DNA from: Candidatus Eremiobacterota bacterium
GTDB lineage: Bacteria > Vulcanimicrobiota > Vulcanimicrobiia > Vulcanimicrobiales > Vulcanimicrobiaceae
Assembly: GCA_019235885.1 (NCBI GenBank)
Contig: JAFAKB010000010.1
Location: forward strand, 1-62,338
Reading direction: 5' to 3'
Length of the DNA: 62,338 nucleotides
The notes under the pieces are model-generated. The model ran no database searches, was not told the DNA's origin, and was given only the letters and a program-made list of their open reading frames with translations. This document shows positions 25,961-54,538 of this stretch, piece by piece (positions within the stretch are counted from its first letter, which is position 1; each line of letters begins with the position of its first letter). The position numbers were made by a program, and so were the translations under genes.

Positions 25961-26152
25961 ATGTCGGAGCACAAAGGCTACATCGAGTCCGAGGAGTCCG
26001 AGCCGACCGTCGCAGGCCACAAGCTCAAAGCCGGACAGAAGTTCGAGGTCAAGGCGGTGAGCGTCAAGGAATCGCAGCTGGGGGCGACCCAGAAGCTGGG
26101 CGCGCGGCTGTGCGGCGGGACGGACACCTGTCTCGCCCTCACCGAGGTCTAA
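25961..26152 (+). CDS. Putative RiPP precursor peptide
   Basis: A 63-residue peptide encoded 18 bp ahead of a radical SAM/SPASM enzyme on the same strand. It begins MSEHKGYIESEESEP, has a lysine-rich middle (residues 21-46), and ends with a Gly/Cys/Thr segment RLCGGTDTCLALTEV holding the only two cysteines (51 and 57). Short length, acidic leader-like N-terminus and a small Cys-containing tail next to a maturase fit a ribosomally made, modified peptide. No family recognised; core boundary and modification are inference. Confidence 0.65.
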   Translation: MSEHKGYIESEESEPTVAGHKLKAGQKFEVKAVSVKESQLGATQKLGARLCGGTDTCLALTEV

Positions 26153-26170
26153 CGCCGACCTGACCGGCCG

Positions 26171-27544
26171 ATGCAGACGCTGCGGCCGTCCCGGTACAAC
26201 TGGTATGTGTCGGGAGCGCTGTACAACGCCCTGACGGGCGCGCTCGTGAAGCTCGATGGCGCCGATGCCGGCGTGCTCGGGCGGCATTTGATGGACACGC
26301 GGGCGGAGCTCGACGACGACGCGCTGGATGGTGAGTTCGTCGCGCTCCTGCGCCGCGGCGGGTTCCTCATCGACGAGGCGACCGACGAGCTGGAGATCGT
26401 GCGCGAGCGGTATTGGCGCGCGCGGGGCGAGACGCCGGCCGTGCTGACGATCACGACGACGATCGACTGCAATCTCGGCTGCTACTACTGCTACGAGCAG
26501 CGCTCGACCGAAGCGCTCGCCCTGCGCGACGTCGGCGCGATCGTGGAGCTCGCGCGCAAGCTGCTCGCCCGGGGCGGGAAGCGCGCGCTGCACGTCGACT
26601 GGTACGGCGGCGAGCCGCTGCTGAACGTGGAGCTCATGGAGACGGCGTCGTTTGCCCTCCAGGAGATGTGCCGCAGCGAGGGCGTGCACTACGTCAGCTC
26701 GGTGATCAGCAACGGGACGGTGTGGCCGGCGAATGTCGCCGAGTTCGTCGCGCGGCACCGCATCCGCCAAGTGCAGATCACCTTCGACGGGCTCGAAGCG
26801 AAACACAACAAGCGGCGGCGCTACCGCTCGAAGAAAGACCAAGCCGAGAAGTCGTCGTTCGCGCAGGCCGCCGAGCTGGTCGACAAGCTGATCGCGTGCA
26901 CGCGGGTCGACGTTCGCTACAACATCGACCCGTACAACCGCGAGGATTTTCTGCCGTTCATCGACTTCGCGGTCGCGCGCGGCTGGTTCAAAGGAGCCTA
27001 TGAGCTCGTGCTGCAGCCGGCCCGCATTTCGGCGTACACCGAGAAGGCCGCGTTCCTGCGGCCGCAAGAGCTCACGCTTGCCGAGTTCCAGGAGCTGAAG
27101 GACGCGGCGATCCAACGGCTGCGCGGGCACGGGCGGATCGAGGAGACCGCGATTCCGGACGGGTACCCGTACCCGAAGACGTCGGTGTGCGCGGCGCTGG
27201 CGAACGACTCGGTGGTGGTCGGCGCCGAAGGAAAGACGTACCGCTGCGGGCTGCAAGTCAGCGAGCCGCACCGCGCCGTCGGCTCGATTCACGACGACGT
27301 CGCCGGAGCGGATGCCGACTGGTGGAAGCAATTCGACCCGACCACGCTGCCGACGTGCTCGCGCTGCTCGTTCCTGCCGGTCTGCATGTCGGGTTGTGCG
27401 AAGAAGCACTTAGACCGCGACGAGCACGCCATCCGCGAGCAAGGGCGCTACTGGCGCGACAACCTCGCCCGCATGATCGCCCACGCCGCCGGCAAGACGG
27501 AAACCGACCGCACCGCGTTCACCGAAGCCGAGCAGTTCCGCTGA
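26171..27544 (+). CDS. Radical SAM/SPASM peptide maturase
   Basis: A 457-residue enzyme. The N-terminal ~95 residues resemble the helical recognition part of peptide maturases (SRYNWYVSGALYNALTGALV). The cluster motif CNLGCYYC is at Cys100, Cys104 and Cys107, followed by DWYGGEPLLN (GGEP motif) and SNGTV. The C-terminal SPASM region has CAALANDSVVV, YRCGLQV, then CSRCSFLPVCMSGCAKKH, giving auxiliary iron-sulfur clusters. Enzymes of this build form thioether or carbon-carbon links in peptides. The 63-residue peptide upstream is the obvious substrate. Confidence 0.88.
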   Translation: MQTLRPSRYNWYVSGALYNALTGALVKLDGADAGVLGRHLMDTRAELDDDALDGEFVALLRRGGFLIDEATDELEIVRERYWRARGETPAVLTITTTIDCNLGCYYCYEQRSTEALALRDVGAIVELARKLLARGGKRALHVDWYGGEPLLNVELMETASFALQEMCRSEGVHYVSSVISNGTVWPANVAEFVARHRIRQVQITFDGLEAKHNKRRRYRSKKDQAEKSSFAQAAELVDKLIACTRVDVRYNIDPYNREDFLPFIDFAVARGWFKGAYELVLQPARISAYTEKAAFLRPQELTLAEFQELKDAAIQRLRGHGRIEETAIPDGYPYPKTSVCAALANDSVVVGAEGKTYRCGLQVSEPHRAVGSIHDDVAGADADWWKQFDPTTLPTCSRCSFLPVCMSGCAKKHLDRDEHAIREQGRYWRDNLARMIAHAAGKTETDRTAFTEAEQFR

Positions 27545-31826: not shown

Positions 31827-32210
31827 TTGTTCTCCCGATTCAGTCCGGCCGCGCGCCGGGTGCTCCGCGCCGCCGAGCAAGAGTGCCGCAACCACAACCA
31901 CTACTACGTCGGCGCCGAGCACATGCTCTACGCGCTGCTCGAGGAGCACGACGGGGCGGTCGACGCGCGGCTCGCGGCCGAGCGCATCGAGCCCGATCAG
32001 GTCCACGCCGAGGTGAAGCGCGCGCTCGGCACCGGTGAAGGACGCACCTGGGAAGGGATCCTCGTGACACCCCGGGTCCGCAAGATAGTAGAGATCGCCG
32101 AGCGGCTCGCCGAGGACCGCGAGATCGAGCCGATCGACCTGTTCGAAGCGATTCGCACCGAAGGCGGCGGGCTCGCGGCCGACATCCTGAGGCGCGCATG
32201 GAACACGTGA
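31827..32210 (+). CDS. Stand-alone Clp N-terminal domain protein
   Basis: A protein of about 127 residues consisting only of a Clp_N double repeat (FSPAARRVLRAAEQECRNHNHYYVGAEHMLYALLEE, second half LVTPRVRKIVEIAERLAEDREIEPIDLFEAI). TTG at 31827 aligns with the usual ClpC start MFxRF; the frame is open to 31746 but that part has no homology. Without AAA modules it could be a substrate adaptor or a decoy for a ClpC-type ATPase encoded elsewhere. It overlaps dedA by 13 bp. Confidence 0.72.
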   Translation: MFSRFSPAARRVLRAAEQECRNHNHYYVGAEHMLYALLEEHDGAVDARLAAERIEPDQVHAEVKRALGTGEGRTWEGILVTPRVRKIVEIAERLAEDREIEPIDLFEAIRTEGGGLAADILRRAWNT

Positions 32211-32836
32211 GCCAGATCTTCCACGACCTCGTCGTCCACCTCGGCTATCCGGGGCTGTTCGTCGTGATGTTCCTCGGCAACATCGGGACGCCGGTCGGCA
32301 CCGAGGTCGTGATGCCGACCGCCGGCGCGCTCGCGGCGCAAGGGCATTTCCCGGCGCTCGGGACGCTCCCCGCCTGGATTTTGGTCGCGATTGTCGGCAC
32401 GTTCGGCGAGCTGTGCGGCGCGACGACGCTGTATGCTGTGGGCCACTTCGGCGGGCTGCCGTTCGTGCACCGTTACGGCAAGTACGTCGGCTTCAAGGAG
32501 CGCGAGCTCGGGCACGTGCAGCGGTTCTACGCGCGGTTCGGCAACTGGGCCGTGCTGCTCGCGCGCTTCGTGCCGTTCGTGCGCGGCGTCGCCTCGCTCC
32601 CGGCCGGCCTCGCGCGGATGCCGCTCCCGCTGTTCTTGTTCTTCACCGCGCTGGGGTCGGTGATCTTTTGTTTCGGCCTGGCGTACCTCGGCGATGTCGC
32701 CGGCAAGAACCTCGACACCATCCTCGCCTCGCTGCACAAGGCCGCGCTCGCGATCATCATCATCGTAGTGCTGGCGATCGCCGGCGCAATCGTATGGTGG
32801 CGCTTGAACGCAAAGAAGCGGGCCGCTGCAACGTAA
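32198..32836 (+). CDS. DedA family membrane protein
   Basis: A 212-residue DedA (VTT/SNARE-associated) protein: GYPGLFVVMFLGNIGTPVGTEVV near residue 20-40, GELCGATTLYAVGHFGG near 70, FYARFGNWAVLLARFVPFVRGVASLPAG near 110-135 with the family Arg residues, and several membrane segments. DedA proteins are undecaprenyl-phosphate or lipid translocases. The C-terminus ends KKRAAAT at the border of an IS remnant. A diverged copy of the last 63 coding bases lies at 49740 and continues four more Ala codons, so this end may be trimmed. Confidence 0.9.
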   Translation: MEHVSQIFHDLVVHLGYPGLFVVMFLGNIGTPVGTEVVMPTAGALAAQGHFPALGTLPAWILVAIVGTFGELCGATTLYAVGHFGGLPFVHRYGKYVGFKERELGHVQRFYARFGNWAVLLARFVPFVRGVASLPAGLARMPLPLFLFFTALGSVIFCFGLAYLGDVAGKNLDTILASLHKAALAIIIIVVLAIAGAIVWWRLNAKKRAAAT

Positions 32837-35104: not shown

Positions 35105-38100
35105 TTAGCGTCGCACTTCAGGACCGGGTCCTGGGGCTGGAGCCGGTACGGGATCAGGAGCAAGCCAGTGCTGGGTCGCTTGATCGTAATGCCAACCAGC
35201 ATTTTGCAATGCGTTCCGCTCCATTCTTGTAAATCCTGTATTGTCCCTCAGAGATCCGTCGGCGTTCACACTCGCGTCTCGAATCGGACGACCGCTCCGC
35301 ATTGCGGAGCGTAGTAGGGAAAAATTCTGCTTCCAGTTTAATTTTGGCGTACCGCGATCGGCCATCCCGAGTAATGTACGCTCACCAGCTCCGATTGCGC
35401 CTGGTGCTTCGAGGTCTGCCAACTTACCGATAACAAGTGTACGGCTTGCCAAGCCAACCGGCCCTACGGCTCCTCCCAATCCAGGAGCGGATGCTTCCGC
35501 GGTCACTACAGCGCCGCCCATTAACATTTCGTAGCAGAACACAATCAGGGGTCCCCAACAATATCCGCTGGGATCGCTGTAGACGTACGGATTGTTCCGG
35601 TTCCACATGTATGGCTTCTGCGTCATCGGGTCGTGCACGTCGCCGTGGTAGGCGTCAGGCGTGTTCCAGACCCCGGCCTGCGGATCGAAGGTACGGACGC
35701 CCTGGACGGTGTTGTAACCGTCGCCGATTCCGTCGCCTTTTGCAATGGTGAGGAGTGCTCCGCGACCTACGGTCGCTACCGGCGAAGCGTAGTGCGGGCT
35801 GGTGAAGCTCTTGGTCGCTAGGCGGCAGTCCAAGATCACGCGGTTGAACGTGTTCGTAAGGGCGGCCGCGGAGCCAGTGGCGTTGTGACAGCCTATGACC
35901 TCATCGTCGTGCGTGCGGTCCCAGACGGTTAGTGGGTTCGACGCGCCGGGAACGTAGTCGGCGAGATCACCGATCTTGATGTCGTCGATTGCGCCGGACG
36001 GGTTGACCGTAAACAAAAGAGTATCGTCGTCCCAATAGAGCGCGTCGTACTGAAAGTCCGTCGGTGTGGTAATGCCGTTGCCAATACTCGTCGATCCGAT
36101 CTGGAACGGGTGATTCGTCGGACCCCAAACGTAGCCTAGAGAGAACTCAACCGGCGAATTCGCTTTGCCACCGGTATACAACGTCTCGTTTGGGCGATTG
36201 TCGACCAGAAGGTGATCTTCCGCATCGTACACTTTTGTCGACTCTTGCCATTGAAGCTGCGCGTCTTCGCTGTAGTCGAGCTGCCCAACCTGACGTCCGA
36301 CGGTGTCGTACTGAAACTGCGTCGTCGTATTGTTTTGGAGCGTTCCCGTGCCATTATCGGTGCAGTGCACGGTTGCCTCACCGCAGGTGTTCGCGGTCGA
36401 GTTCCCGACCGGGAACGACTGCTTGGCATCGAATTGATACGACCCAGTCGCCGGGAAACGCGGCGGTGAAACGCCGATCGATCGCACTTGTATGATTCGA
36501 ACGCCGTTTGCCATCTTCGCCGGCACGGCAGACTTGTCGTCACTGGGGTATAGCTCCGTAACGATCTCGCCACGCGTCGAATACGTCGCGGCAAGCGTCG
36601 ATCCCGCAATCCACGCACCGTTGTTGAACACCTGCGTGGAGCCGCCCAGCTGCTCGCCTTCCGCGTTGTACGTCATCCCGCTTTCCTGCCAGGCGGGCAT
36701 CGATTCGGAAAGCGGCAACCCGGAAGGCCCATAGGAGATCGTGTCCGGCGCTTGACCGGTGCTGTCGCCACGGCTGGTCGGGCGCCGCCCGCCGGTGTAT
36801 GCGAAGCTCAAGAACGCATTCCCGGGAAGGGTTACTTTTCGCACCAGATTGTCGGCGCGGTAGCTGTAACCCAGGACATTGGGCATGTTCGCCAGACCAC
36901 TGATCGAAATTGCGGACCGCAACCCGTCGGCATAGTATCCGTAGGTCAGCGTCGCCGGCGTGTTGGAGCCCACGGCCTCCATGCGGGTGCTCTTGCGGCC
37001 GTCAGCGTCGTACGCATCGGCGATCGAGCCGACACCGTTCTGCGCGCTCGCCAGCCGACCGTCGTCGTCGTACATGAACGTCTGCGCCGTGGTGGAAGTC
37101 GGGTTGAACGTAGCCTGGTACTTCAGCCCGCGCTCGTTGTACGAGAAGTTGCGGCATTCGGGCTTCGCATTGCAGGTTTGCGAGAGGAGACCGGCGCTGC
37201 CGGCTCCGTCGTAGGTGTTCGTGACCGGCATCATGCCGATCGAGGAGTCCCGGTACTGGACAGTGGCCCGGTCCAGCGCGTCGAAGGTCGTGCCGGCCGT
37301 ATCTTGCCATGAGAAGTTGGTGTTGCCCGTGGAGCCCGTCTCCGCCCAGGTGGGCGTCCCGCTGGCGGGCAGATATTCTTGCGTCTCGAAAAGATTGCCG
37401 TACGCCTGATACGAGGGGCTCGTGCCGACGTGGACGTTGCCGCCCGCGGTCAGGTCGTAGAGATAGCGCGTGCTCCAAGGGACGGGATAGTAAAAATCGC
37501 TGTTGGGATCGGGCGGCTGCTGCACCTCGATCAGACGATCCGCGCCATCGTACCATTTGTGGGTGGTCGCCGGAGTGCTGGTGTGATTGGTGATCTCAAC
37601 GGTCTCGTTGCCGTCGAGATCGTACTGGAACTGCGTTGAGACGCCGGCCGCGAATTCGGAGGGGTTCTGCGTCGTCGCAAGCGTTCCATCGGGGAAGTAG
37701 GTCTTACGAGTGACGATCGTTGACAACGGAATTCCCGGTGTCTTCGCACAAGAACCATAGGGCAATGAAGTATCGTCCGGGTCGCCGATGGCGACGACGC
37801 GGTTCAACGCGTCGTACGAAAGAACCGTCGTCGTCGTTGGGTCGTTTCCGTCGCCCATCGAGCAGATGAGGTTGCCTGACGTATCGTAGGTCAGGGATTC
37901 CAGCGGTGTGCGCATGCCGTCCGGCTGGCTGATCGGATCGCCGGCGACGGACGTCGGCAGACCGTAATCTACGCCGCCTTGCCGAGCCGGGTCGTATCCG
38001 ATCGCGCGGTTGTAGCCCATCGGTGTTCGAATATTCGTCAGCTCGCCGTACGGCTCGTACGACGGCGCTGGATTGACGGGGTACGTGAAGACGGCGTGCG

Positions 38101-40084
38101 CCGAGGAGCCGTTGTTCGCGCATAGCGCGTCGGGCCCGCCAGCCGTGGGCGGCCCAGCGGCCGTCCAGTCCCCGCTCGGATGGCTCGCGCGCTGATCGCA
38201 GTACGCGATTACATTGTTGAATTGGTCGTAGTCGTAAAGCTGCGTCGGCCGGAACGTCGCCGTTCCGGTCGGCGTAATCACCGTCGTAGACGGTTCCGCT
38301 ACCGCGACGGTGTTGCCGTTGGTATCGTACGCGTAGTCGGTCTGATACCCACGAGGATTCATTTCCGAAGTGAGATTGTTGTTCGCGTCCCACGTTTCGT
38401 TCGTGACGAGAGCGCGCGACCAGTCACTACACTGCTGTCCCTGGCTCGTGCTCGCCGTGCACTCTTGCGTCTGCGTCGGACGGCCCAGCCCGTCGACCAC
38501 CCAGTTCGTCATGTGGCCGTCGGTGTCGCGATAGGTCGGCGTCGGGACGCCGGTCGTGTAGAATTCAGTGAGGTATCCATATGCAGTAGCGGGGAAACCC
38601 GACTGCAAAGGGCCAGAGGTGACGGCGTCCGAAATTGTCGGATTCACCACACCCACGTGCTCGATGGAGCTCACCGTCGAAGAGACGGCGCTGGTTCCGG
38701 TGTATCCCAGCAACAATCCCTCACCATCGCTGCCGCAGCTGCCCGCGGTGCAACCGGCGTTGTACCGGGGACTCGAAAGATCTGCCAACACCCAGTCGCT
38801 CCCAAGGGGCTGGTAGCTGAATGTCTGCAGGGGGCGCGTTCCGGCACTGTTGTTCGGCGGCCGCTCCACGGACGCAAGGTTCCCGTTCGCGTCGTAGCCG
38901 TAGATGACGCTGGTTCCGCCGTCCGGAAAGGTCAGCTGCTGCAAGAGCCGATGGCCGTTGAAGTCGGCGAACGCCAGCGTCGCGCTCATGCCGGACTCGG
39001 TCGTCGCCGTGATCCCGCTGATCTTGCCGGTGACCGAGGCGTCGCCGGTGTCCCAGGAATAGTTGAAGGTGATCGAGGTGTTGCGGTTGCGCCCGATGAT
39101 CTGGTGGATGCGGCCGGCATAGCCGCCTACGGTGCCGGACGTGGTGGAGCACGACTGGCTCGGGTCGACGTTGTAAAAGTAGTACAGTGTCCCGGACTTC
39201 TTCTGCCACAGCAGCCCGCATGCGCCGTCCCAGGTCAGCGTCGAGTGATCGCCGGGCGGCGCGCTCACGGTGTAGCCGCCGTACGTGATGTAGTCGTACC
39301 GGGCGCCGTCGATGTCGTAGACGCTGAAATGGCCGGGCGACGTGCGGATCACGTGCGCGTCGAATGTGTTCGTCCAGCCGTTGCCGTACAGGCCGGTCCA
39401 GGTCTGCAGATCGCCGCTCACCGTCGTCGGGCTCTGCGAGTTGTACGTCCGGCGAAAGGCCATCGCGATGCCCTTGTGCGGGACCGCCATGTCGTCGTCT
39501 TGAAGCAGCAGATTGCCGGTGCCGACGTTCACCATGAGGTGACCCCCGCCCGGCACGTTCTCTTCTTGATACCGCCACCAGTGATTGATGCCGGTGCCGG
39601 AGGCGGTCGGGTCCGAGGGAAGCGACATCGCGCGCCGTGTCCCGGGGCGCGTTCTGGGCGGCGCCGGGAGCGGCAGCGCGCGGGGTGGTGACGCTCGTGT
39701 GTTCAGCTGAAGCGAGCGCTGCTGCATCGCGCGCCGGCGGATGGCCGTCATGGCGTGATCGACCTCGAACGGTCGGAGCATCGGCGGGCCGTTGACCGGA
39801 ATGCCGTGAGCGCGTACGCCGTGCACCGTCTTCGGGCGCAGGGCGCTCAGCGAGAACGGCGAGGGCTTCACGCGCGCCGGCTCCTTCACCGGAATGCGCC
39901 GCGGCGGCGTCGCGGGCGCGACCGGCACACGCTGCGGCCAAAGCGTGGCCGCTGCGGCGAGCGGGATACCGCCGAACAGCGGGCGCGCCGTGATCGCGTC
40001 GATGATGAGCGACACTGGCGAAACTTGGCTCAAGAGCGCAAAGGAAAGCAGCGCCGCCAGTGCGGCACGAACGCGGAAGCGCAC
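35105..40084 (-). CDS. Secreted RHS/YD-repeat polymorphic toxin
   Basis: A 1659-residue protein. GTG at 40084 is chosen: a GGGAG site lies 7 nt upstream and a signal peptide follows (FRVRAALAALLSFALLSQVS); the frame is open to 40210. After a Pro/Arg-rich stretch, a DUF6531-like region (GTGNLLLQDDDMAVPHKGIA, about residue 190) and many YD repeats follow (YDANGNLAS, YDTNGNTVAV, YDLDGNETVE, YDADGRKST). The core closes with the RHS hallmark NRNNPYVYSDPSGY near residue 1500. The last ~155 residues are the variable toxin part, ending in GFTRMERNALQNAGWHYD and a Pro-rich tail. Toxin activity is not identifiable. Confidence 0.9.
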   Translation of the reverse strand: MRFRVRAALAALLSFALLSQVSPVSLIIDAITARPLFGGIPLAAAATLWPQRVPVAPATPPRRIPVKEPARVKPSPFSLSALRPKTVHGVRAHGIPVNGPPMLRPFEVDHAMTAIRRRAMQQRSLQLNTRASPPRALPLPAPPRTRPGTRRAMSLPSDPTASGTGINHWWRYQEENVPGGGHLMVNVGTGNLLLQDDDMAVPHKGIAMAFRRTYNSQSPTTVSGDLQTWTGLYGNGWTNTFDAHVIRTSPGHFSVYDIDGARYDYITYGGYTVSAPPGDHSTLTWDGACGLLWQKKSGTLYYFYNVDPSQSCSTTSGTVGGYAGRIHQIIGRNRNTSITFNYSWDTGDASVTGKISGITATTESGMSATLAFADFNGHRLLQQLTFPDGGTSVIYGYDANGNLASVERPPNNSAGTRPLQTFSYQPLGSDWVLADLSSPRYNAGCTAGSCGSDGEGLLLGYTGTSAVSSTVSSIEHVGVVNPTISDAVTSGPLQSGFPATAYGYLTEFYTTGVPTPTYRDTDGHMTNWVVDGLGRPTQTQECTASTSQGQQCSDWSRALVTNETWDANNNLTSEMNPRGYQTDYAYDTNGNTVAVAEPSTTVITPTGTATFRPTQLYDYDQFNNVIAYCDQRASHPSGDWTAAGPPTAGGPDALCANNGSSAHAVFTYPVNPAPSYEPYGELTNIRTPMGYNRAIGYDPARQGGVDYGLPTSVAGDPISQPDGMRTPLESLTYDTSGNLICSMGDGNDPTTTTVLSYDALNRVVAIGDPDDTSLPYGSCAKTPGIPLSTIVTRKTYFPDGTLATTQNPSEFAAGVSTQFQYDLDGNETVEITNHTSTPATTHKWYDGADRLIEVQQPPDPNSDFYYPVPWSTRYLYDLTAGGNVHVGTSPSYQAYGNLFETQEYLPASGTPTWAETGSTGNTNFSWQDTAGTTFDALDRATVQYRDSSIGMMPVTNTYDGAGSAGLLSQTCNAKPECRNFSYNERGLKYQATFNPTSTTAQTFMYDDDGRLASAQNGVGSIADAYDADGRKSTRMEAVGSNTPATLTYGYYADGLRSAISISGLANMPNVLGYSYRADNLVRKVTLPGNAFLSFAYTGGRRPTSRGDSTGQAPDTISYGPSGLPLSESMPAWQESGMTYNAEGEQLGGSTQVFNNGAWIAGSTLAATYSTRGEIVTELYPSDDKSAVPAKMANGVRIIQVRSIGVSPPRFPATGSYQFDAKQSFPVGNSTANTCGEATVHCTDNGTGTLQNNTTTQFQYDTVGRQVGQLDYSEDAQLQWQESTKVYDAEDHLLVDNRPNETLYTGGKANSPVEFSLGYVWGPTNHPFQIGSTSIGNGITTPTDFQYDALYWDDDTLLFTVNPSGAIDDIKIGDLADYVPGASNPLTVWDRTHDDEVIGCHNATGSAAALTNTFNRVILDCRLATKSFTSPHYASPVATVGRGALLTIAKGDGIGDGYNTVQGVRTFDPQAGVWNTPDAYHGDVHDPMTQKPYMWNRNNPYVYSDPSGYCWGPLIVFCYEMLMGGAVVTAEASAPGLGGAVGPVGLASRTLVIGKLADLEAPGAIGAGERTLLGMADRGTPKLNWKQNFSLLRSAMRSGRPIRDASVNADGSLRDNTGFTRMERNALQNAGWHYDQATQHWLAPDPVPAPAPGPGPEVRR

Positions 40085-40490: not shown

Positions 40491-43103
40491 ATGCGTGAGC
40501 GCGCGGTATGTGCGATCATGGCGGCTCTGTTCGTGTCGTCGCCGTTCGCGATCGCGACGGCCGCGCAGCCGCCCGCGCACGATGCGCGAAAGGTCACCCT
40601 GCACGCGCAGAACGAGCCGGTCCGGAGCGTTCTCGTGCGCATTGCCCGAGATACCGGCACGAACATCGCGATCGGGGACGGCGTTTCGGGATACGTAACG
40701 GTGGAGCTGCACGGGGTCGCCCTGACGAAGGCATTGCACGCGGTACTCGATCCACTCGGCGCGACGTTTCAAGTCCACGGCGGCGTCTACGACGTCGAGC
40801 GCCCGCCGAGTGCCGTGGCGGGCAGTGCGGCGACTCCCGTCGTGCTGCCGTTGGCGGTCGTGAGCGCGAAGCGCGCCGCGGCGATGGTACGGCCGCTCTT
40901 TCCCGGTGTGTCCATCAGCGAGGACGTCTCGGCGAACGCCTTGGTCGCGATCGGCTCGGCAGCCGACGTGCAAGCGATGCGAACGGTGCTCCAAGGAATC
41001 GACGTGCGCAACCCGGCTTTGCCGGTGACGCAGGCCTTCGCTCTGCACGGAGCGGTTCAGGCGCGGGTGCTCGCGCAGAACCTTCGCGCCGCTTTCCCGT
41101 CCTCGAAGTTCGCGGCGGCTGGGGCGAAACAGCTGCTCGTCACGGCGCGTCCGAACGACCTCACCCAGATCAAAGCGGCGATCGACGCGCTCGACACGCC
41201 GAGCGCGACACCGCCGCCGGCGGCGCTGTCCGCCGAAGCGGTGCCGGTATTGCGCCGCCTGCCGCATGACGTCGCGCGGTCGCTCGCAGCGCAGATCCCG
41301 GGGCTTCACGTGGCCGTCTCCGGGAGCGCGGTCGTTCTCTCGGGTTCGCCGGACGCGGTTTCGCGCGGCAAGGCGCTCGTCGCACAGCTGGATCTTCCGA
41401 ACTTCGGCGAGCGCTACACGCAAGTCTATCGCATCCGCACGCTGGACGCCGCTTCGGTGGCTGATCTCCTGCGCCGCAGTTTTCGGGACCTCGAGGTCAG
41501 CGTCGATGTGTCGCTCAACGCGCTCGCGGTCACCGGGACCGCTGCGCAGCAGCAACGCATCGCAGACGCGATCACACAGCTCGACGCAGCGCCGAGCACC
41601 CAAGGCGTAGGTGTCCAATCGGGCGCATACGGTGGCGGCTCCACGGAGGTGGTGACGCTACGGTCGTTCGTCCCCGGCCAGACGACCGGCGGCGTCGACG
41701 CGGTTACCTCGTTCACGCAAGCGTTGCAGGTGATCACGCCGGACGTTCGGGTCGTGCCGCTGCCGACGCCGGGCCAGATCGCGCTCGTCGGGCCGCCCGC
41801 GAGCGTTCGCTCCGCGCGCGAGTTCCTCGACAAGGTCGACGTCGTGCCGCCGCTCGTCGTGCTCGACACCGAAGTGCTTGAAGTCGACGAAAGCGTCGCC
41901 AAGAACATCGGCCTTCAGCTCGGCACTGCCGCCCTCAGCACGACGTTCACGGAAATGCAGCCGCCGCCGAACGCGGACGGTTCGCCGCCCCGCCTCGGGC
42001 GATTTCAAGCGCTCTCGCGCACGCCGATCTCGTTTACGGCGCAGCTGAACCTTCTCGTGCAGAACGGCAAAGGCCGCGTGCTCGCCGATCCGCGCATCAC
42101 GACCCTTTCGGGGCGCACCGCCTCCATCCGCGCCGGCGACACGATCTCCATCCTCACGACGACCGCCGGCAACGCCGGAACGATTGCGACCACGCAGGTT
42201 CAAAGCTTTCAAACCGGCGTGACCCTGGACATCACGCCCTCCGTCTCGCCCGACGGTGGCGTCACCGTCGCCTTGCATCCGGTCGTGAACAGTCTGATCG
42301 GCACAAACGCTGGCGTCCCCGAGATCAGCACCCGCGACACGCAAACGACCGTGCACCTTCAGGACGACGAGACGCTGGTCATCGGCGGCTTGATTCAGGA
42401 GAACGACACCCGGACGACGACCAAGATCCCGCTGCTGGGCGACGTGCCGCTCGTCGGCCGCGTGTTCCGCAACGACAACGTGCAGGGTCAGCGCAACGAG
42501 CTGATCATCGTCGTCACGCCGCACATCGTCAAGCCCGGCAAGTCCATCCTTCCCGGTCCGCCGCTGCAGGTGGTGCCGACGCCGGCCGCGCTCCCGACCT
42601 TGCCGCCGAACACGCGCCTCCCCGCACCGAGCGGCCAGCTGCCAATGAGACGGATGACATCCGCAATCGTAGCAGCGACGCCGGCGCCGATTGCGGTGGC
42701 TTCGCCTGGGCCTCGCGCGGCTGTGACGCCGGCGCCGGTGCCGACAGCCTTCGCCCAAACGAACGTATTCACGTTCGGCGCCGCGCCGCAAAGCAATTTC
42801 GCGAAACCGACCGATCCGGTTCAGATTTTCTACGCGACGCTTTCACCGACCGTGGTTTCGAACGGAAGCTCGGTGCGCGTCGCCGCCGTGACCACGGCGA
42901 ACGCGACGACGGTCAAGTTGCAGATCGGCACGCAGAGCATCGGCCTTGCGCAAACCGCGCCCGGCCAATGGCAGGCATCGTTCCCCTTTCCGCTCGCGGC
43001 GCTTGCACCCGGACAAACCGCCGTAACGGCGTCTCTTGTCGCGAGCCGGTCGGACGGCACATCTGCCACCGTCCCAATTCCGCTCAATGTAGCGTCGTCC
43101 TGA
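40491..43103 (+). CDS. Secretin-family outer membrane protein (PilQ/GspD-like)
   Basis: An 870-residue protein. The ATG at 40491 gives a signal peptide (MRERAVCAIMAALFVSSPF). An STN/AMIN-like N0 domain (VTLHAQNEPVRSVLVRIARD) and several secretin_N repeats follow (ALVAIGSAADVQAMRTVL, ALAVTGTAAQQQRI). The secretin channel spans about residues 460-680 with VLADPRITTLSGRTASIRAGD near 530 and LVIGGLIQENDTRTTTKIPLLGD near 630. A Pro-rich linker and an Ig-like C-terminal domain close it. It forms an outer membrane ring. No pilus or type II genes are adjacent; the RHS gene is its divergent neighbour. Confidence 0.88.
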   Translation: MRERAVCAIMAALFVSSPFAIATAAQPPAHDARKVTLHAQNEPVRSVLVRIARDTGTNIAIGDGVSGYVTVELHGVALTKALHAVLDPLGATFQVHGGVYDVERPPSAVAGSAATPVVLPLAVVSAKRAAAMVRPLFPGVSISEDVSANALVAIGSAADVQAMRTVLQGIDVRNPALPVTQAFALHGAVQARVLAQNLRAAFPSSKFAAAGAKQLLVTARPNDLTQIKAAIDALDTPSATPPPAALSAEAVPVLRRLPHDVARSLAAQIPGLHVAVSGSAVVLSGSPDAVSRGKALVAQLDLPNFGERYTQVYRIRTLDAASVADLLRRSFRDLEVSVDVSLNALAVTGTAAQQQRIADAITQLDAAPSTQGVGVQSGAYGGGSTEVVTLRSFVPGQTTGGVDAVTSFTQALQVITPDVRVVPLPTPGQIALVGPPASVRSAREFLDKVDVVPPLVVLDTEVLEVDESVAKNIGLQLGTAALSTTFTEMQPPPNADGSPPRLGRFQALSRTPISFTAQLNLLVQNGKGRVLADPRITTLSGRTASIRAGDTISILTTTAGNAGTIATTQVQSFQTGVTLDITPSVSPDGGVTVALHPVVNSLIGTNAGVPEISTRDTQTTVHLQDDETLVIGGLIQENDTRTTTKIPLLGDVPLVGRVFRNDNVQGQRNELIIVVTPHIVKPGKSILPGPPLQVVPTPAALPTLPPNTRLPAPSGQLPMRRMTSAIVAATPAPIAVASPGPRAAVTPAPVPTAFAQTNVFTFGAAPQSNFAKPTDPVQIFYATLSPTVVSNGSSVRVAAVTTANATTVKLQIGTQSIGLAQTAPGQWQASFPFPLAALAPGQTAVTASLVASRSDGTSATVPIPLNVASS

Positions 43104-43456: not shown

Positions 43457-44305
43457 GTGAGCACTCCTGCTTTTCGTGTGAGTGATGCGCAGTTGCGACT
43501 AGTCATCGAGCACTACGAACGCGCTGCGCCATTGATTGCGGCAAATTTTCCGAATGCGCCGCTCGTGGCGGCGTACTATGCGCACGGGTTGGAAGAGCGC
43601 CCTACGTACTCGGGCGGCTGGCAAAAGCCGCTGCCGGAATCCGTTCACACGGTGCACGTCGAGACGTCCAGCGGGAAGCACCTCTATCCCGGCTGCACCG
43701 AGAACGCGATCTTGTGGCTGGTGCACGGCTATGCCGTCGGGATCCAGTCGTGGACGCCGAGCGCGCGCGATCCGGAGTCGGTGGGGTTCGCGCGGTTGCT
43801 GCTGCGCCCCGTCGCCGGCGCGGATCAGATGATGCTGAAAGAGGCGCTGCTGGCGATGCGAACGGCGCTGTTCTCGCGTGGCAACGGGCTGGAAGCGATT
43901 CCTATGCTCGATGGGCCCGACGCCGCTGCGCTGTTCGTTCCGCTATCGGACGCGCCGACCTATGAGGCGGTTCGTGGGTGGCTGCACGAGCTTGTCGGCC
44001 ATGCGATCGAAACGCATCCCGCGCTGCTCGTCGGCGAGCGGCATCCCGATGAGAAGTTCGAGGCCGCGCGGATTCAGTGCACCTTCGTGTCGGATGCCGT
44101 CGGGCATTCGAGCGCGCTGCCGTACTCCCTCTCCGGACCGTCGGAGCTTCCGATGGTGACGCCGTTCAGGTGGGAGGAGCTCGGCACGATGGAGCACGGG
44201 AAATTCAACGCGAAGAACTCGGCGGAGCGACTTCAGAACGGCGACGTCTTCGCGCAGCTGGTCGCGGAGATCGGCCTTCAGCGGTTCGCGGACGCCGTGC
44301 GGTAA
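43451..44305 (+). CDS. Protein of unknown function upstream of M4 protease
   Basis: A 284-residue protein, GTG at 43451 or 43457. I do not recognise it. Features include an N-terminal helical region (LRLVIEHYERAAPLIAANF), YPGCTENAILWLVHGYAVGIQSWTP with one cysteine, LVGHAIETHPALLVGERHPD and a C-terminal helix. No signal peptide, no membrane segment. It is followed with no gap by the M4 metalloprotease gene, so the two are almost certainly co-transcribed. A partner, inhibitor or delivery role for the protease is inference. Confidence 0.6.
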   Translation: MGVSTPAFRVSDAQLRLVIEHYERAAPLIAANFPNAPLVAAYYAHGLEERPTYSGGWQKPLPESVHTVHVETSSGKHLYPGCTENAILWLVHGYAVGIQSWTPSARDPESVGFARLLLRPVAGADQMMLKEALLAMRTALFSRGNGLEAIPMLDGPDAAALFVPLSDAPTYEAVRGWLHELVGHAIETHPALLVGERHPDEKFEAARIQCTFVSDAVGHSSALPYSLSGPSELPMVTPFRWEELGTMEHGKFNAKNSAERLQNGDVFAQLVAEIGLQRFADAVR

Positions 44306-45334
44306 ATGTCAGTCGTTCCGCCGTATCTGTTGGAGGCGCTCGAGCGGCATCCGAGCGAGCGCGTGCGGACCGCGGCGCAGCGGACGCGCTCGGCGCGCGT
44401 GCCGCACGAGCAGCCGACGCGGCCGGCGGCGCGGATCGCGGTCCATCGGCCGCACCCCAAGCACCGGTTGATTTACGACGATCGTCACGAACAGGTGTTG
44501 CCGGGCGTTCTCGTGCGGAGCGAGGCCGAGCCGAGCAGCGGCGACGGCGACGTCGACCGCGCGTACGACATGGCCGGAGAGACGCTCGACTTCTACGCAG
44601 CGGTCTTCGGCCGGGACTCGATCGACGATCGCGGCATGCACGTCATCTCCACGGTTCACTACGGAGAGCGGTATCTGAACGCGTTCTGGGACGGCGCGCA
44701 GATGGTGTACGGCGACGGGGACGGTGAAGTGTTCGCGAGCTTCACCACGTGTCTTGACATCACGGCGCACGAGCTCACGCACGGTGTGACCCAGGCGGAC
44801 GTCGGGTTCGTCTATGACGGCGAGACGGCGGTGCTGTGCGAGTCGATCGCGGACGTCTTCGGGTCGCTGGTGAAGCAACGCATGCTGGGGCAGACGGCGG
44901 ATGAAGCGGACTGGGTGCTCGGCTCGGGCATCTACGGCTCGGGGATCAAGGGCGTCGGGTTGCGGTCGATGGCATCACCGGGCTCGGCATACGATGATCC
45001 CTTGCTCGGCGGTCGCGATCCTCAAGTGGCTCACATGCGCGACTACGTCGAGCTGGGGACGACGGAACGGACGGCTCACCGGAACTGCGGCATCCCGAAC
45101 CATGCGTTCTACCTTTTCGCGAAGGCCGTGGGCGGGAACGCGTGGGACGTCGCGGGACACGTGTGGTACGACGCTTTGCGTTCCGGACTGCACCGCGCGT
45201 GCGAGTTTCGCGGCTTTGCGCTTGCCACGGCGGAGGCGGCGCGGTCGCACGGCGCACCCGTCGTGGAGGCGCTTCACCACGCGTGGCGCAGCGTCGGCGT
45301 CAGCGTCCCTCAGCGGGCGGCGTCGGCGGGTTAG
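44306..45334 (+). CDS. M4 (thermolysin/protealysin-like) metalloprotease
   Basis: A 342-residue M4 peptidase. The short N-terminal propeptide PPYLLEAL is of the protealysin type. The active site is HELTH at residues 155-159, the third zinc ligand Glu179 in LCESIADVFG (thermolysin-like NExxSD replaced by CExxAD), and RNCGIPNHAFYLFAKAVGG carries the transition-state His. No Sec signal is present, as in protealysins, which leave the cell by unknown means. It overlaps by 35 bp with the convergent nuclease gene. Protealysin-like enzymes often have an emfourin inhibitor; none is seen. Confidence 0.88.
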   Translation: MSVVPPYLLEALERHPSERVRTAAQRTRSARVPHEQPTRPAARIAVHRPHPKHRLIYDDRHEQVLPGVLVRSEAEPSSGDGDVDRAYDMAGETLDFYAAVFGRDSIDDRGMHVISTVHYGERYLNAFWDGAQMVYGDGDGEVFASFTTCLDITAHELTHGVTQADVGFVYDGETAVLCESIADVFGSLVKQRMLGQTADEADWVLGSGIYGSGIKGVGLRSMASPGSAYDDPLLGGRDPQVAHMRDYVELGTTERTAHRNCGIPNHAFYLFAKAVGGNAWDVAGHVWYDALRSGLHRACEFRGFALATAEAARSHGAPVVEALHHAWRSVGVSVPQRAASAG

Positions 45335-49939: not shown

Positions 49940-52594
49940 TTACCCCATCATGTAGCGCGCCAGTTGCGTGCGCGACGTAACACTCAACTTCGCGAACGCG
50001 TTCGCGAGGTGGACTTCGACGGTCCGCTCGCTCAGAAACAAGGCCTGCGCAATCTCACGGTTGCGCTTTCCTTCGGCGACCAGCTCGGCGATCTGAACCT
50101 CTCGCCGGGTCAAGCCGTCTTTGCGGCGGGCCGTGCGGGGGCGCAGGGCGCGTCCGAGCGCCTTCGGGCGCCGCGCGCCCTCTTCCGGCACGGCGCAGCG
50201 CATGGCCAGCTCGGCGAAGAACGATGCGCCGAGCACGCCGAACTGCTCGGAAGCGTCGCGCAGAAGCGCGTTTCCGTCGGCGAGCCCCAGCGCCGCGCGC
50301 GCGTAGCCGCGGCTGAAAACGTATTGCGCGCGCAGCCAGCGCGAACAGCGCGGGGTCTCTTCGACGGCGAGCTCCTCGGCCAGCGCGCGGTCGTCGCGCA
50401 CCGCGTAGAGCGCGAGCGCGACGGGGACGAAGCAGATCGCGTCGATCGCGAGCGGTCGCCGGCGGAACTCGGTAACCTGGCGCGCGATCTCGGTCATGAA
50501 CTGCGGGCGCGGCTCGTCGTTGGCGGTGAGCATCCAGGCCGCGAGCTGGAACGCGCTCGGCCCGATCCCATGCCGCGAGGCAAGATCGAGGAACGGCAGC
50601 GCGCGCGCGCCGGCGCCGGAGCGCTCGCCGTCGAGCGCGCTCATCGCAACGCTGACGGCGAGCAGCAGCATCTGCTGAATCGCCGGAAGCCGGTCGAGGT
50701 TGATGCGCTCGAGCCGGTTGTCGAGAGCCTGGCGGCGGCCGCGCGCCAGATCGGCGACCGCGTGCAGGTAGTGCCAGTAGCCGACGATCTCCTCGCCGCG
50801 CGAGCCGGCCGCCGGGAATTCGGCCGTGCCGAGCGCGCGGCAACCGTGCTCCTCGAAATCGACGAACGTGTCCACGATCGGGAGCGAGAAGTCGAGGCCG
50901 GACTGCTGATTGGTGGAGAACGACTCGGCGACGCGCAGCGCGCGCTGCGCCGCCTCGTGCCGGCCGAGCCGCGAGTCGATCAGCGCTTGCGATTGGTGGA
51001 ACGAGGCGATCGCGAGCGGCGTCGCGCCGGGCTCGTCGCGCAGCTCGGCCGCGATCGCCGCGACGTGCGGCTCGTCGACGATTCCGGCGTACGTCGCCGC
51101 GACGGCGGCGCGCAGCTCCGAGGCCTCGGCGGGATCGTGCTGGTCTTCGATCGAGTGCTCAAACGTAGCGATCGCGCGCGCCGGATCTTCGAGATCGGTT
51201 TGGATCGCGACCAGCGTCGCGGCGAGCCGGCCGAGGCCGGCGGTGATCCCCGCCTCCTTGCCGTGGCGCAGCGCGCGAACGATGAGCGTTTCGGCTTCGC
51301 CGTAGCGGGTCGCGAAGCGCAGCGCCGCCGCGTACGTTCGGAAGAACGCCACGTAGCGCTCCGGCCCAGGCCAGCGCACGGCGAGCGCTTCGGCGAACGC
51401 GGCGGCGGATTGGTCCCAGCGCTTGAGCGCGTATGCCGCTTCGGCCGTGCGCGTCGCGTACTCGTAGCAGGTGTCGCGATCGCCGATAGCGGCCGCGTGC
51501 TCGACGATCCGGCGGTAGTCTTCGATTCGGCCGCGTTCGAGCGCGATGAACGCGGCGACGATCTTGCGGCGCAGCGGCATCTCGAGCGCGATCGAGTCGC
51601 GCACCGCGGCGCACACCGCGTCGTGGCGGAACGCGAACGCGCCGTCGCGCGCGCAAAGATAGCGCCGGGCCTGCTCGACGAGCTGCGCCAGCCGCACCGG
51701 GTCGGGGTAGAGCACGCTGAGCACGCGCTCCTCGACCGGTGCGCCGATCAGCGCGCAGTGCTGCAGGAACTCACGTGCCGGGGCGTCCATTGCCGCGAGC
51801 TCGCGCTCGATCTTCGCGCGCAGGGTGCTCGTCAGGTCGGCGGCCGGACGGCCCTCGTCGGCGCGTGCCTGCGACGCGAGCAGGACAAGATCGGCCGCGA
51901 CGCCCTGGGCTTGGTCGACGACGGTCTCGAGTACGTCGTCGGGCACGCCGGGATACTCCGCGCGCACGATCGCGCGCGCTTCGCTCGGCGCGAGCCGTCC
52001 CAGCGACAGTTCGGCGCTGCACGCCGGCAGATCGGGATGCGGCGGGCCGTCGTCGCGCTGCGCGCAAAGCACGCACAGCGGAACGTCGCTCAAGTAGGCG
52101 TACACGTAGCGCACGGCGCGCGCCGTCTCGGACTCCATCGCTTCCGCGTCGTCGATCGCGATCAGCAGACGCCGGTCAGCGGCGATCCCTTCGAGCAGCC
52201 GGCTCGCGACGATCTCCGGCGCGATCGCCGCCGCATCCGGCCCGCCGTTCGCCGCCGCGGCGCCGGGCTGCAGCACCGCGAGCGCGCGGGTGAGACCGCT
52301 CGCATACGCGCCGGCGTCGTCGCCGAGCTCGCGCAGCGCCGCGGACGTGAGATCGAGCAACAAGGCCAGCGGATCGCCGCGCGCGCCGGCGCAAGCGACG
52401 GAGAACGCGAGCCAGCCGGCTTCGCGCGCGGCGCAGACCGCGCTGCGCAGCAGCGTCGTTTTGCCGTAGCCCGGCGGTGCGACGATGCGCACGAAGCGGT
52501 GCTGGCGCAGCTCCGCGACGCGATCCATATGCTGGCGGATCGCCGCAAGATCCCGTCCTCTGGTACCGGACGAAACGAAATCGTTCAAGACCAT
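49940..52594 (-). CDS. LuxR/MalT-type ATP-binding transcriptional regulator
   Basis: An 884-residue regulator. ATG 52594 is preferred; the frame is open to 52714, but that would cross into the divergent gene. The N-terminal STAND-type ATPase has VRIVAPPGYGKTTLLRSAV (Walker A) and RRLLIAIDDAEAME (Walker B). A long helical TPR-like middle follows. The C-terminus is a LuxR HTH (GLTRREVQIAELVAEGKRNREIAQALFLSERTVEVH). It is divergent from the borosin-like precursor gene, with about 100 bp between starts, and is the likely regulator of that cluster. Confidence 0.88.
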   Translation of the reverse strand: MVLNDFVSSGTRGRDLAAIRQHMDRVAELRQHRFVRIVAPPGYGKTTLLRSAVCAAREAGWLAFSVACAGARGDPLALLLDLTSAALRELGDDAGAYASGLTRALAVLQPGAAAANGGPDAAAIAPEIVASRLLEGIAADRRLLIAIDDAEAMESETARAVRYVYAYLSDVPLCVLCAQRDDGPPHPDLPACSAELSLGRLAPSEARAIVRAEYPGVPDDVLETVVDQAQGVAADLVLLASQARADEGRPAADLTSTLRAKIERELAAMDAPAREFLQHCALIGAPVEERVLSVLYPDPVRLAQLVEQARRYLCARDGAFAFRHDAVCAAVRDSIALEMPLRRKIVAAFIALERGRIEDYRRIVEHAAAIGDRDTCYEYATRTAEAAYALKRWDQSAAAFAEALAVRWPGPERYVAFFRTYAAALRFATRYGEAETLIVRALRHGKEAGITAGLGRLAATLVAIQTDLEDPARAIATFEHSIEDQHDPAEASELRAAVAATYAGIVDEPHVAAIAAELRDEPGATPLAIASFHQSQALIDSRLGRHEAAQRALRVAESFSTNQQSGLDFSLPIVDTFVDFEEHGCRALGTAEFPAAGSRGEEIVGYWHYLHAVADLARGRRQALDNRLERINLDRLPAIQQMLLLAVSVAMSALDGERSGAGARALPFLDLASRHGIGPSAFQLAAWMLTANDEPRPQFMTEIARQVTEFRRRPLAIDAICFVPVALALYAVRDDRALAEELAVEETPRCSRWLRAQYVFSRGYARAALGLADGNALLRDASEQFGVLGASFFAELAMRCAVPEEGARRPKALGRALRPRTARRKDGLTRREVQIAELVAEGKRNREIAQALFLSERTVEVHLANAFAKLSVTSRTQLARYMMG

Positions 52595-52698
52595 CGGGCC
52601 ACCCGCCGCATAGCGAGACACCGCCGACCCGGTAGCGGTCCGGCGACGTTTCGACGCGGCCGGCGCCTTTTCATCGCCATCTGAGAGGAGAACGCACC

Positions 52699-53115
52699 AT
52701 GTCGTCCCCGACAACCGAGACCACGACGACCACGACGACCACGACGACGACCGTCACCACGACCGCCGGCGCCGCCGGCACCACCCAGAAGTCCTGGTCG
52801 AGTAACGGCCAGGCGGCGTATCCGATCACGACCGACAAGTCGACGCACCCGTTCTACGCGTTCGTCGACTTGATCGGCCGCGACCCCGCCGCGCTCAAGG
52901 CATTCTGCGACGACCCGAGCGGCGATCCCGCAGCCGCGAATCTCACTCCCGAGCAGAGGGCAGCGCTGTTGACCGGCCACTGGCGCAACATCGAGGCGCA
53001 GGTCGCCGCCGAGAACGACCAGCTCAAGACGGTCGTCTATGAGTACATCGGCTGGAACATGAAGGCCGTCGGCCCGGACATTCTCGCCGCGCTCAAGGCG
53101 AAGGCTCCTGCGTGA
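52699..53115 (+). CDS. Putative split-borosin precursor peptide
   Basis: A 138-residue protein with a GAGAGGAG ribosome site. Residues 5-22 are almost all Thr (TTETTT then a run of T). Residues 50-100 (HPFYAFVDLIGRDPAALKAF, then NLTPEQRAALLTGHWRNI) have the helical shape of the borosin-binding domain of SonA-type precursors, where an LTxEQxxALxxGD-like end is typical. The C-terminal tail (LKTVVYEYIGWNMKAVGPDI) would hold the core. The stop overlaps the methyltransferase GTG. Which residues are methylated is unknown. Confidence 0.7.
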   Translation: MSSPTTETTTTTTTTTTTVTTTAGAAGTTQKSWSSNGQAAYPITTDKSTHPFYAFVDLIGRDPAALKAFCDDPSGDPAAANLTPEQRAALLTGHWRNIEAQVAAENDQLKTVVYEYIGWNMKAVGPDILAALKAKAPA

Positions 53116-53906
53116 GCCGTCCGGGGCTCGTCGTCGTCGGCACCGGGCTTCAAGTGTCGGCGCACGTCGCGCCGCTGGCGCGCGCGCACGTCGTGCAGGC
53201 CGACAAGCTGCTTTACCTCACCACCGATCTCGGCGCGGCGGCGTGGCTGACCGAGAACAACGCGAGCGCCGAGTCGCTGGAAGGGTTCTACGCGCCGGGC
53301 AAAGCGCGCGCCGACACGTACGAGGAAATGGTCGAGCACGTCCTCTCGTTCGTGCGCGCGGGGATGCTCACGTGTCTGGCCGTGTACGGGCATCCGGGCG
53401 TGTTCACGTACGCGACGCACGAAGCGGTGCGCCGCGCGCGCGCGGAAGGCTACGAGGCGCGCATGCTGCCGGCGATCTCGGCCGAGGACTGCTTGTTCGC
53501 GGATCTGGGCGTCGACCCGGCCGACCACGGGTGCCAGAGCTACGAGGCGACCGACTTTCTCGTCCACGACCGCACGATCGACACGACGAGCGCGCTCGTG
53601 CTGTGGCAGATCGGCGTGGTCGGGAATCTCGGGCTCGTCACGCAGACGAGTCAACGCGGGCTGGCGATCCTCGCCGAGACGCTCGTCGCGCGCTACGGCG
53701 CGACGCATCCGGTCGTGGTGTACCACGCCAGCCCGCATCCCATCGTGCCGCCGACGATCCAGCGGATCATGATCGGCGGCATCCTTGAGGCGGAAGTGGT
53801 GCCGATGTCGACGCTCTACGTTCCGCCGCTGCAACCTGAGCGCGTCGACTGGGCGATGGCGCGCCGGCTGGGCTTAGAATGCGAGCTCGCCTGCGCCGAC
53901 GAGTGA
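53112..53906 (+). CDS. Borosin-type alpha-N-methyltransferase (SonM-like)
   Basis: A 264-residue tetrapyrrole-methylase-fold protein. GLVVVGTGLQ at the N-terminus, VYGHPGVFTYATHEAVRRA near 91-108 and AISAEDCLFADLGVDPADHGCQSYEATDF near 121-149 follow the split borosin methyltransferases. Tyr60, Arg66 and Tyr70 keep the Y-x5-R-x3-Y catalytic spacing of borosin enzymes (OphMA numbering Y66/R72/Y76). It should methylate backbone amides of the upstream precursor using SAM. GTG start, 4-bp overlap with the precursor gene. Confidence 0.85.
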   Translation: MSRPGLVVVGTGLQVSAHVAPLARAHVVQADKLLYLTTDLGAAAWLTENNASAESLEGFYAPGKARADTYEEMVEHVLSFVRAGMLTCLAVYGHPGVFTYATHEAVRRARAEGYEARMLPAISAEDCLFADLGVDPADHGCQSYEATDFLVHDRTIDTTSALVLWQIGVVGNLGLVTQTSQRGLAILAETLVARYGATHPVVVYHASPHPIVPPTIQRIMIGGILEAEVVPMSTLYVPPLQPERVDWAMARRLGLECELACADE

Positions 53907-53968
53907 ACGACGTTCGCCCAATTCGCACTTCTCTTTTCCACTCGCCAAAGCCGAAAGGAACGAGCCGT

Positions 53969-54538
53969 ATGGCAACGCTCAGAGTAACCCTTTCCAAACC
54001 CGGCCAACCGTGCGTCCAAGACGAAACGCCGGCCGGTGTTTTCCCGCACCCCGGATGGTACGCGTTCGTCAACACATGCGACGGACAACCGCTGGTATAC
54101 GCCGGCAAAGAGTACGGGCCATTTCCGGTCGACCACGGGTACGTCGAGATCAAGAACGTCCCGCCTGGGACGTATTACGTGTGGGCGCTGGTCAACCCGT
54201 TCCCGGTCGCGACGAAGGGACCGTATGCCGACGTCATCTATCAGTCGAATTTCGTCGCGCACTTCTCGATCATCGAAGTGTGTTGCAACGATTGTCCGGA
54301 AGACATCTGCGTTCGGCTCTACAACTCCGGCTGGCACTACTGCGCGACGGTGATCATCCACTGGTTCGCGACGCTCGCCGCACGCGGCCAGATCGATCCG
54401 GAGCTTGCGGAGACCGTTCACACGACCCTGACGCGCGCGATGGTGAAGGGCGACGCGCTGCCCGCCGACGCTCCGATGATCCAGCAGATCCAGCAGCTCG
54501 CAGAGATGTTCCATCGACAGAAACGCGCCGACCGGTAG
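53969..54538 (+). CDS. Unknown protein in the borosin-like cluster
   Basis: A 189-residue protein. ATG 53969 follows AAAGGAA. The N-terminal ~85 residues look like a beta-sandwich of the carboxypeptidase-regulatory type (GYVEIKNVPPGTYYVWALVNP). A Cys-rich patch EVCCNDCPEDICVRLYNSGW follows, then a helical C-terminus (HTTLTRAMVKGDALPADAPM). No signal peptide. Gene position after the methyltransferase, about 60 bp away, suggests a cluster partner; function unknown. Confidence 0.65.
   Translation: MATLRVTLSKPGQPCVQDETPAGVFPHPGWYAFVNTCDGQPLVYAGKEYGPFPVDHGYVEIKNVPPGTYYVWALVNPFPVATKGPYADVIYQSNFVAHFSIIEVCCNDCPEDICVRLYNSGWHYCATVIIHWFATLAARGQIDPELAETVHTTLTRAMVKGDALPADAPMIQQIQQLAEMFHRQKRADR

Follow-up and report, generated by a model that had tools for sequence, protein, structure and literature searches.

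Introduction

Do two overlapping genes in the genome of Candidatus Eremiobacterota bacterium encode a split borosin, in which a methyltransferase acts on the backbone of a separately encoded precursor, and does the large regulator gene beside them serve the same system? The pair (52699–53115 and 53112–53906) and the regulator gene (49940–52594) lie in a stretch of 62,338 nucleotides of contig JAFAKB010000010.1 (assembly GCA_019235885.1), which was analysed at its full length and is called the window below. An initial annotation, made from the letters and a list of open reading frames (ORFs), had proposed here a split borosin-like cluster with its own LuxR regulator, and its coordinates and reading frames proved to be correct. 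The sequence comparisons described below suggest that this is a split borosin locus, i.e., one for a ribosomally synthesized and post-translationally modified peptide (RiPP), which is located on an accessory island and comprises a SonM-like enzyme and an overlapping upstream precursor carrying a borosin-binding domain (BBD). We put the probability of this reading at roughly 0.86. Sequence, fold, a leave-one-out profile and the order of the genes in many genomes all lend strong support to the view that the two genes form a genuine split borosin pair.

The methyltransferase

When the 53112–53906 product was searched against all PDB chains by phmmer, the best match was SonM (7ltc; E = 2.8e-60, residues 5–256 of 264), and the fungal OphMA family was also matched (E ~2e-49). 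These were its sole PDB relatives at significant E-values, and no tetrapyrrole or cobalamin methylase appeared below E = 1 in the same search. The gene encodes a discrete alpha-N-methyltransferase homologous to SonM and OphMA, and the grouping with cobalamin-pathway methylases, which the initial annotation had named as the outcome that would speak against a borosin, was not observed. In an alignment of 22 sequences (the window protein, 20 relatives and the SonM segment), the residues Y60, R66 and Y70, already singled out in that annotation as catalytic, were invariant (22/22) and aligned with Y58, R67 and Y71 of SonM; the YGHPG block that it had recognized was kept across the alignment as well. 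The substitutions Y58F, R67K and Y71F lower the catalytic efficiency of SonM 14- to 98-fold, and trace activity remains in R67A (PMC8429565).

Pfam places the same product in the broad TP_methylase family, a fold family that includes the borosin enzymes, and one could on this ground take it for a tetrapyrrole or other small-molecule methylase with an unrelated gene upstream. Such an assignment is already contradicted by (i) the SonM match, with no cobalamin enzyme below the E-value given above, (ii) the presence of the borosin catalytic residues, and (iii) the conservation of upstream BBD proteins, and we regard it as extremely improbable.

The precursor

We built a family profile from 16 precursor proteins, namely the upstream neighbours of the enzyme in 15 relatives and the 52699–53115 product. 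This profile retrieved SonA (E = 2.3e-8), followed by weak matches to the OphMA clasp and to LigA, a subunit of protocatechuate dioxygenase; the BBD shares homology with a portion of the OphMA clasp and with dioxygenase-capping domains (PMC8429565). Rows of TAL effectors returned by the family profile were dismissed as repeat noise, no single stretch passing. A profile from which the window protein was excluded (15 independent upstream neighbours) found a sole match among the 787 ORFs of the window, the ORF at 52636–53115 (E = 9.4e-8), with the runner-up at E = 7.6.

AlphaFold2, given the 16-row alignment, predicted a helical domain at residues 51–105 (pLDDT ~90), most remaining residues being of low confidence or extended. 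In the VIA re-alignment of Foldseek candidates, the OphA clasp (320–386) came first (Z = 5.6, 66 residues), followed by the DesB LigA domain; the first 13 rows were made up of the OphA clasp and DesB groups, both kinds being named as BBD homologues (PMC8429565). The precursor appears to be composed of a disordered Thr-rich extension (residues 1–47), the BBD (~48–105), a candidate core (~109–120) and a tail that ends at residue 138. The BBD-like helical region seen in the initial annotation is indeed present, albeit its span of 50–100 is better given as 48–105. The protein is also long, as had been noted: its 138 residues compare with 80–120 aa in the relatives, the longer form carrying the Thr-rich N-terminal extension.

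Some results tell against this reading. The window precursor used as a single phmmer query had no match in the PDB, so that its family placement rests on the profile, and Foldseek alone gave no significant match for the precursor model. The Z-score of 5.6 is modest for a helical fold. Finally, the candidate core is not conserved among the relatives.

Candidate core and Thr-rich extension

In SonA, the BBD occupies residues 1–53 and methylation occurs at residues 63 and 65 (PMC8429565). Residue 50 of SonA corresponds to profile position 60 and to I98 of the window precursor, and from this spacing the first methylation sites are predicted near T111 and V113, in TVVYEYI within the candidate core LKTVVYEYIGWN (~109–120). 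In the window precursor, the stretch that follows the BBD is spaced as in SonA, and beta-branched and aromatic residues succeed one another in it. The C-terminal parts of the relatives differ in sequence, yet beta-branched or other hydrophobic residues often alternate in them. As the core is not conserved between relatives, we infer its exact position.

The Thr run pointed out in the initial annotation is real (16 of the 18 residues at positions 5–22 are Thr), and it arises from a 9-bp tandem repeat detected by TRF (Table 1). The Thr segment is absent from the 15 relatives, two of which (L037 and L039) have shorter Lys/Arg-rich extensions in its place. As the most unusual part of the precursor, lying outside the folded domain, the Thr-rich segment might itself be the methylated core in place of the C-terminal tail, and type 0 borosins do place the core N-terminal of the methyltransferase (PMC11395268). 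Nevertheless, the core of SonA comes after the BBD, and it is the post-BBD stretch of the window precursor that has the matching spacing and the beta-branched and aromatic run; the 15 relatives do without a Thr segment, and the run derives from a simple repeat. We consider a core in the Thr segment very unlikely. With the core placed in the C-terminal part, the helical domain (~48–105) would dock on the methyltransferase and deliver the hydrophobic stretch next in the chain to the active site; there, selected backbone amides of the C-terminal tail would be methylated by S-adenosylmethionine in the N-to-C direction.

Split borosins in the class

More than 1000 split borosin loci had been predicted by 2022. 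The initial annotation had regarded split borosins as known from a few organisms and the arrangement as apparently new; this view is not supported, as types IV–X have been described (PMC11395268) and we detected the enzyme in 18 of the 117 genomes of the class, usually with a short precursor adjoining. The precursor lies directly upstream of the enzyme in nearly all carrying genomes, and at 15 loci a protein of 80–120 aa ends at most ~45 bp from the first matched codon of the enzyme or overlaps it. The window, too, has a separately encoded BBD precursor adjoining the enzyme gene. Because split borosins are established and are common in the class, the locus belongs to a known kind: it is a split borosin of the established kind with an uncommon precursor. 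What is truly unusual is the long Thr-rich extension, the orphan third gene and the RiPP-dedicated regulator lineage.

Among known systems, the type IV split borosin SonM/SonA of Shewanella oneidensis has the same catalytic residues, a separate BBD precursor and adjacent genes, and SonM and the window enzyme are ~43% identical over the aligned region. SonA, however, comprises 71 aa, whereas the window precursor, at 138 aa, has the Thr-rich extension ahead of its BBD and also a C-terminal tail that is longer; in addition, the window has its own STAND/LuxR regulator and the orphan third gene. Type IV precursors are short (~70–75 aa) with the BBD at the N-terminus, and the window precursor, with a 47-residue extension before the BBD, departs from that type. 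The fungal fused borosins OphMA and dbOphMA share a homologous methyltransferase domain, and the window BBD resembles the OphA clasp, but in OphMA the enzyme and core form one chain while the window encodes them in separate genes.

In one relative (G077; L029:17560–18576, minus strand), the BBD is fused N-terminal to the methyltransferase in a single ORF of 338 aa resembling the type 0 fused borosins, unlike the separate genes of the window. This natural fusion supports the partnership of precursor and enzyme. In the genus g14, a conserved protein of 549–576 aa with a weak PDZ match is encoded directly after the methyltransferase (L028:11243–12889 and L032:10080–11810) and is possibly a partner or processing factor.

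A regulator lineage associated with RiPP loci

The initial annotation had described the regulator as a divergent STAND/LuxR protein, and Pfam indeed detected AAA_16 (E = 1.2e-9) and GerE (E = 1.6e-20) in one chain. An N-terminal NTPase and a C-terminal GerE helix-turn-helix in one long chain characterize STAND/LuxR (MalT-like) proteins, and the window regulator shares with the MalT-type and LAL LuxR regulators the NTPase, a TPR-like region and the C-terminal LuxR helix-turn-helix. Orthology to MalT is not indicated (38.7 bits vs. a cut-off of 537). We rejected a role in defence, for which the PADLOC matches were weak and mostly to the helix-turn-helix. Whereas the divergence of the protein had been noticed, its significance as a member of a RiPP-associated lineage had been missed.

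With an E-value limit of 1e-15, relatives of the regulator were found at 33 non-self places in the class, a gene of G057 that appears as two fragments being counted as a single place. Of these, 26 have a YcaO gene at 5 kb or less and a further one has it at 5.4 kb; three adjoin a borosin methyltransferase in the head-to-head orientation of the window (twice in G062 and once, as a decayed pair, in G076); two could not be judged, their contigs being too short; and the last, in G110, has no maturase in its vicinity. Among the relatives of the class that can be assessed, the G110 copy is thus the sole one that does not adjoin RiPP maturase genes. YcaO genes occur at 37 loci in 33 genomes, so that a genome with YcaO has about one copy; the regulator lies within 5 kb at 26 of the 37 loci, and chance adjacency of the lineage to YcaO is therefore not credible. 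In the regulator tree, the three intact borosin-adjacent regulators formed one clade (99/97), and a separate STAND/LuxR clade (100/100) comprised those downstream of borosin genes of the family f3. Large LuxR regulators were accordingly placed beside borosins at least twice. In two congeners (L023 and L040), the neighbouring regulator is of another kind, XRE-NB-ARC-TPR; taken together, regulators of these two kinds, STAND-LuxR and XRE-NB-ARC-TPR, accompany roughly every second borosin locus of the class and belong to several separate lineages. Within the collection of papers searched, none mentions both borosin and LuxR. At L090:2405–3962, in another genus, a decayed STAND/LuxR gene and a methyltransferase fragment are arranged head to head, which represents the window arrangement in a dead copy.

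The YcaO/TfuA loci of the class resemble the window in having a homologous STAND/LuxR lineage and a precursor candidate (~95 aa) adjoining the maturase. They differ in their YcaO plus TfuA chemistry (YcaO proteins with the PF02624 domain; TfuA fused or nearby) and in orientation, as in most of them the gene of the precursor candidate runs convergently up to or into the 3' end of the regulator gene, whereas regulator and precursor are divergent in the window. A BBD leader fold shared by the precursors of the YcaO clusters was considered and not established (hhalign probability 17% over 22 columns), and the Foldseek candidates for a YcaO precursor model included no BBD or LigA structure. A conserved protein of ~120 aa (motif like VPYCFILDDAYRVVMAGPS; L069:4202–4570, minus strand), encoded divergently from the regulator in these loci, has no Pfam family and was not seen in the window; similar genes occur in L065, L068, L070, L071, L076–L078, L080–L083, L086 and L087. 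The genome of the window itself has a separate YcaO/TfuA-like cluster with radical SAM-like neighbours on contig C85 (L073:1320–11174), without a copy of the STAND/LuxR lineage.

From adjacency, and with less certainty than for the docking and methylation proposed above, we infer that the window regulator would be a locus-specific, ATP-dependent activator of the divergent precursor–methyltransferase operon. It may also be that the STAND/LuxR gene is a chance neighbour with no role in the locus. No operator motif shared by the three divergent regulator–borosin intergenic regions scored above shuffles, and several borosin relatives in the class have no adjoining regulator, both of which count on that side. 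On the other hand, all but one of the assessable regulator relatives stand beside RiPP maturases in genomes with about one YcaO each, and the window regulator is the only full-length member in its genome, where the other matches are short and nearly all to the DNA-binding domain. A chance neighbourhood appears improbable to us.

Locus layout and genomic setting

Table 1 Features of the borosin locus and of the accessory stretch
Feature	Position	Strand	Remarks
RHS-repeat ORF	35105–40084	-	within accessory stretch
Secretin	40491–43103		within accessory stretch
LigD-type primase-polymerase	43565–44305		within accessory stretch
M4 (thermolysin-family) peptidase	44306–45334		within accessory stretch
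STAND/LuxR transcriptional regulator (AAA_16 NTPase, TPR-like middle, GerE helix-turn-helix)	49940–52594	-	884 aa; Pfam
Intergenic region between the divergent genes, presumed to hold the promoters of the regulator and of the precursor operon	52595–52698		104 bp; gene order
Borosin precursor (probable substrate)	52699–53115	+	138 aa; profiles, AlphaFold2, VIA
9-bp tandem repeat encoding the Thr run, GACCACGAC x3.3	52719–52748	+	TRF
Borosin alpha-N-methyltransferase	53112–53906	+	264 aa; GTG start; SonM/OphMA matches, catalytic residues
Orphan third gene, Cys-enriched	53969–54538	+	189 aa; starts 62 bp past the methyltransferase

The stop of the precursor gene and the GTG start of the methyltransferase gene share the 4 bp GTGA (53112–53115), the overlap reported in the initial annotation. 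Shine-Dalgarno-like sites precede both the precursor gene and the third gene, and a codon model trained without these two genes favoured their annotated frames by coding score. The regulator probably starts with the ATG at 52594, at a distance of 104 bp from the precursor ATG.

The third protein was rightly described as Cys-rich (7 Cys in 189 residues, or 3.7% vs. 1.0% over the window genes) and has a CCx2Cx4C patch. Searches of 149 genomes of the phylum, of plasmids and of viral contigs gave no convincing homologue; a weak match in G072 (26%, inside a gene of 388 aa) was judged spurious, and a match to the beta-sandwich family fn3_3 was sub-threshold (E = 0.063). The third gene may be part of the operon. 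The next gene is uvrC, at 54735.

In six congeners (L094–L099), a DedA-like gene lies directly or nearly directly before uvrC, separated from it by no more than one small gene. In the window, ~21.9 kb (32837–54734) separate the DedA-like gene (32198–32836) from uvrC, with the borosin genes at the uvrC end, and this accessory stretch is absent at the same site in the six congeners. Borosin matches occur in four of the 11 genomes of the genus, that of the window included, and one of them (G105) is a remnant. Such gained-and-lost accessory behaviour fits a specialised-metabolite locus. In the remnant at L040:9510–9932 (minus strand), the beginning of a BBD continues in frame into the C-terminal half of the methyltransferase, apparently through an internal deletion. 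Elsewhere in the window, a small ORF of 63 aa followed by a radical SAM protein of 457 aa (25961–27544) is a candidate second RiPP locus. A pattern scan across genome contigs reached three distant loci and no more.

Fate of the product and implications

Given a borosin pair, the methylated protein might be intracellular rather than secreted, its modified tail feeding back on the STAND/LuxR protein or binding another partner. Neither an exporter nor an obvious dedicated protease was seen to adjoin the pair, and the frequency with which STAND-LuxR or XRE-NB-ARC-TPR regulators accompany the borosin loci of the class points the same way. Nevertheless, RiPP maturation genes are often unlinked, SonA-type loci are also small, and the M4 peptidase gene lies 8 kb off on the same island; we regard an intracellular product as possible, though not as the likelier outcome.

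Backbone N-methylation contributes to the stability and membrane permeability of peptides, and borosin enzymes are tools for such methylation. The locus adds a compact enzyme–precursor pair with an unusually long precursor. It is attractive to speculate, with due reserve, that one STAND/LuxR lineage is a dedicated RiPP switch whatever the maturation chemistry, which moved between YcaO/TfuA and borosin clusters within the class and senses a shared feature, either the precursor leader or the finished peptide, the peptide thereby controlling its own production. One regulator lineage marking RiPP loci of two chemistries is what a specialist may not expect, and through this lineage the question whether two unrelated peptide chemistries are served by a single type of regulator becomes testable. 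The RiPP-dedicated lineage would also provide a sequence handle to find and switch on silent RiPP loci in the class, including those with unknown maturases.

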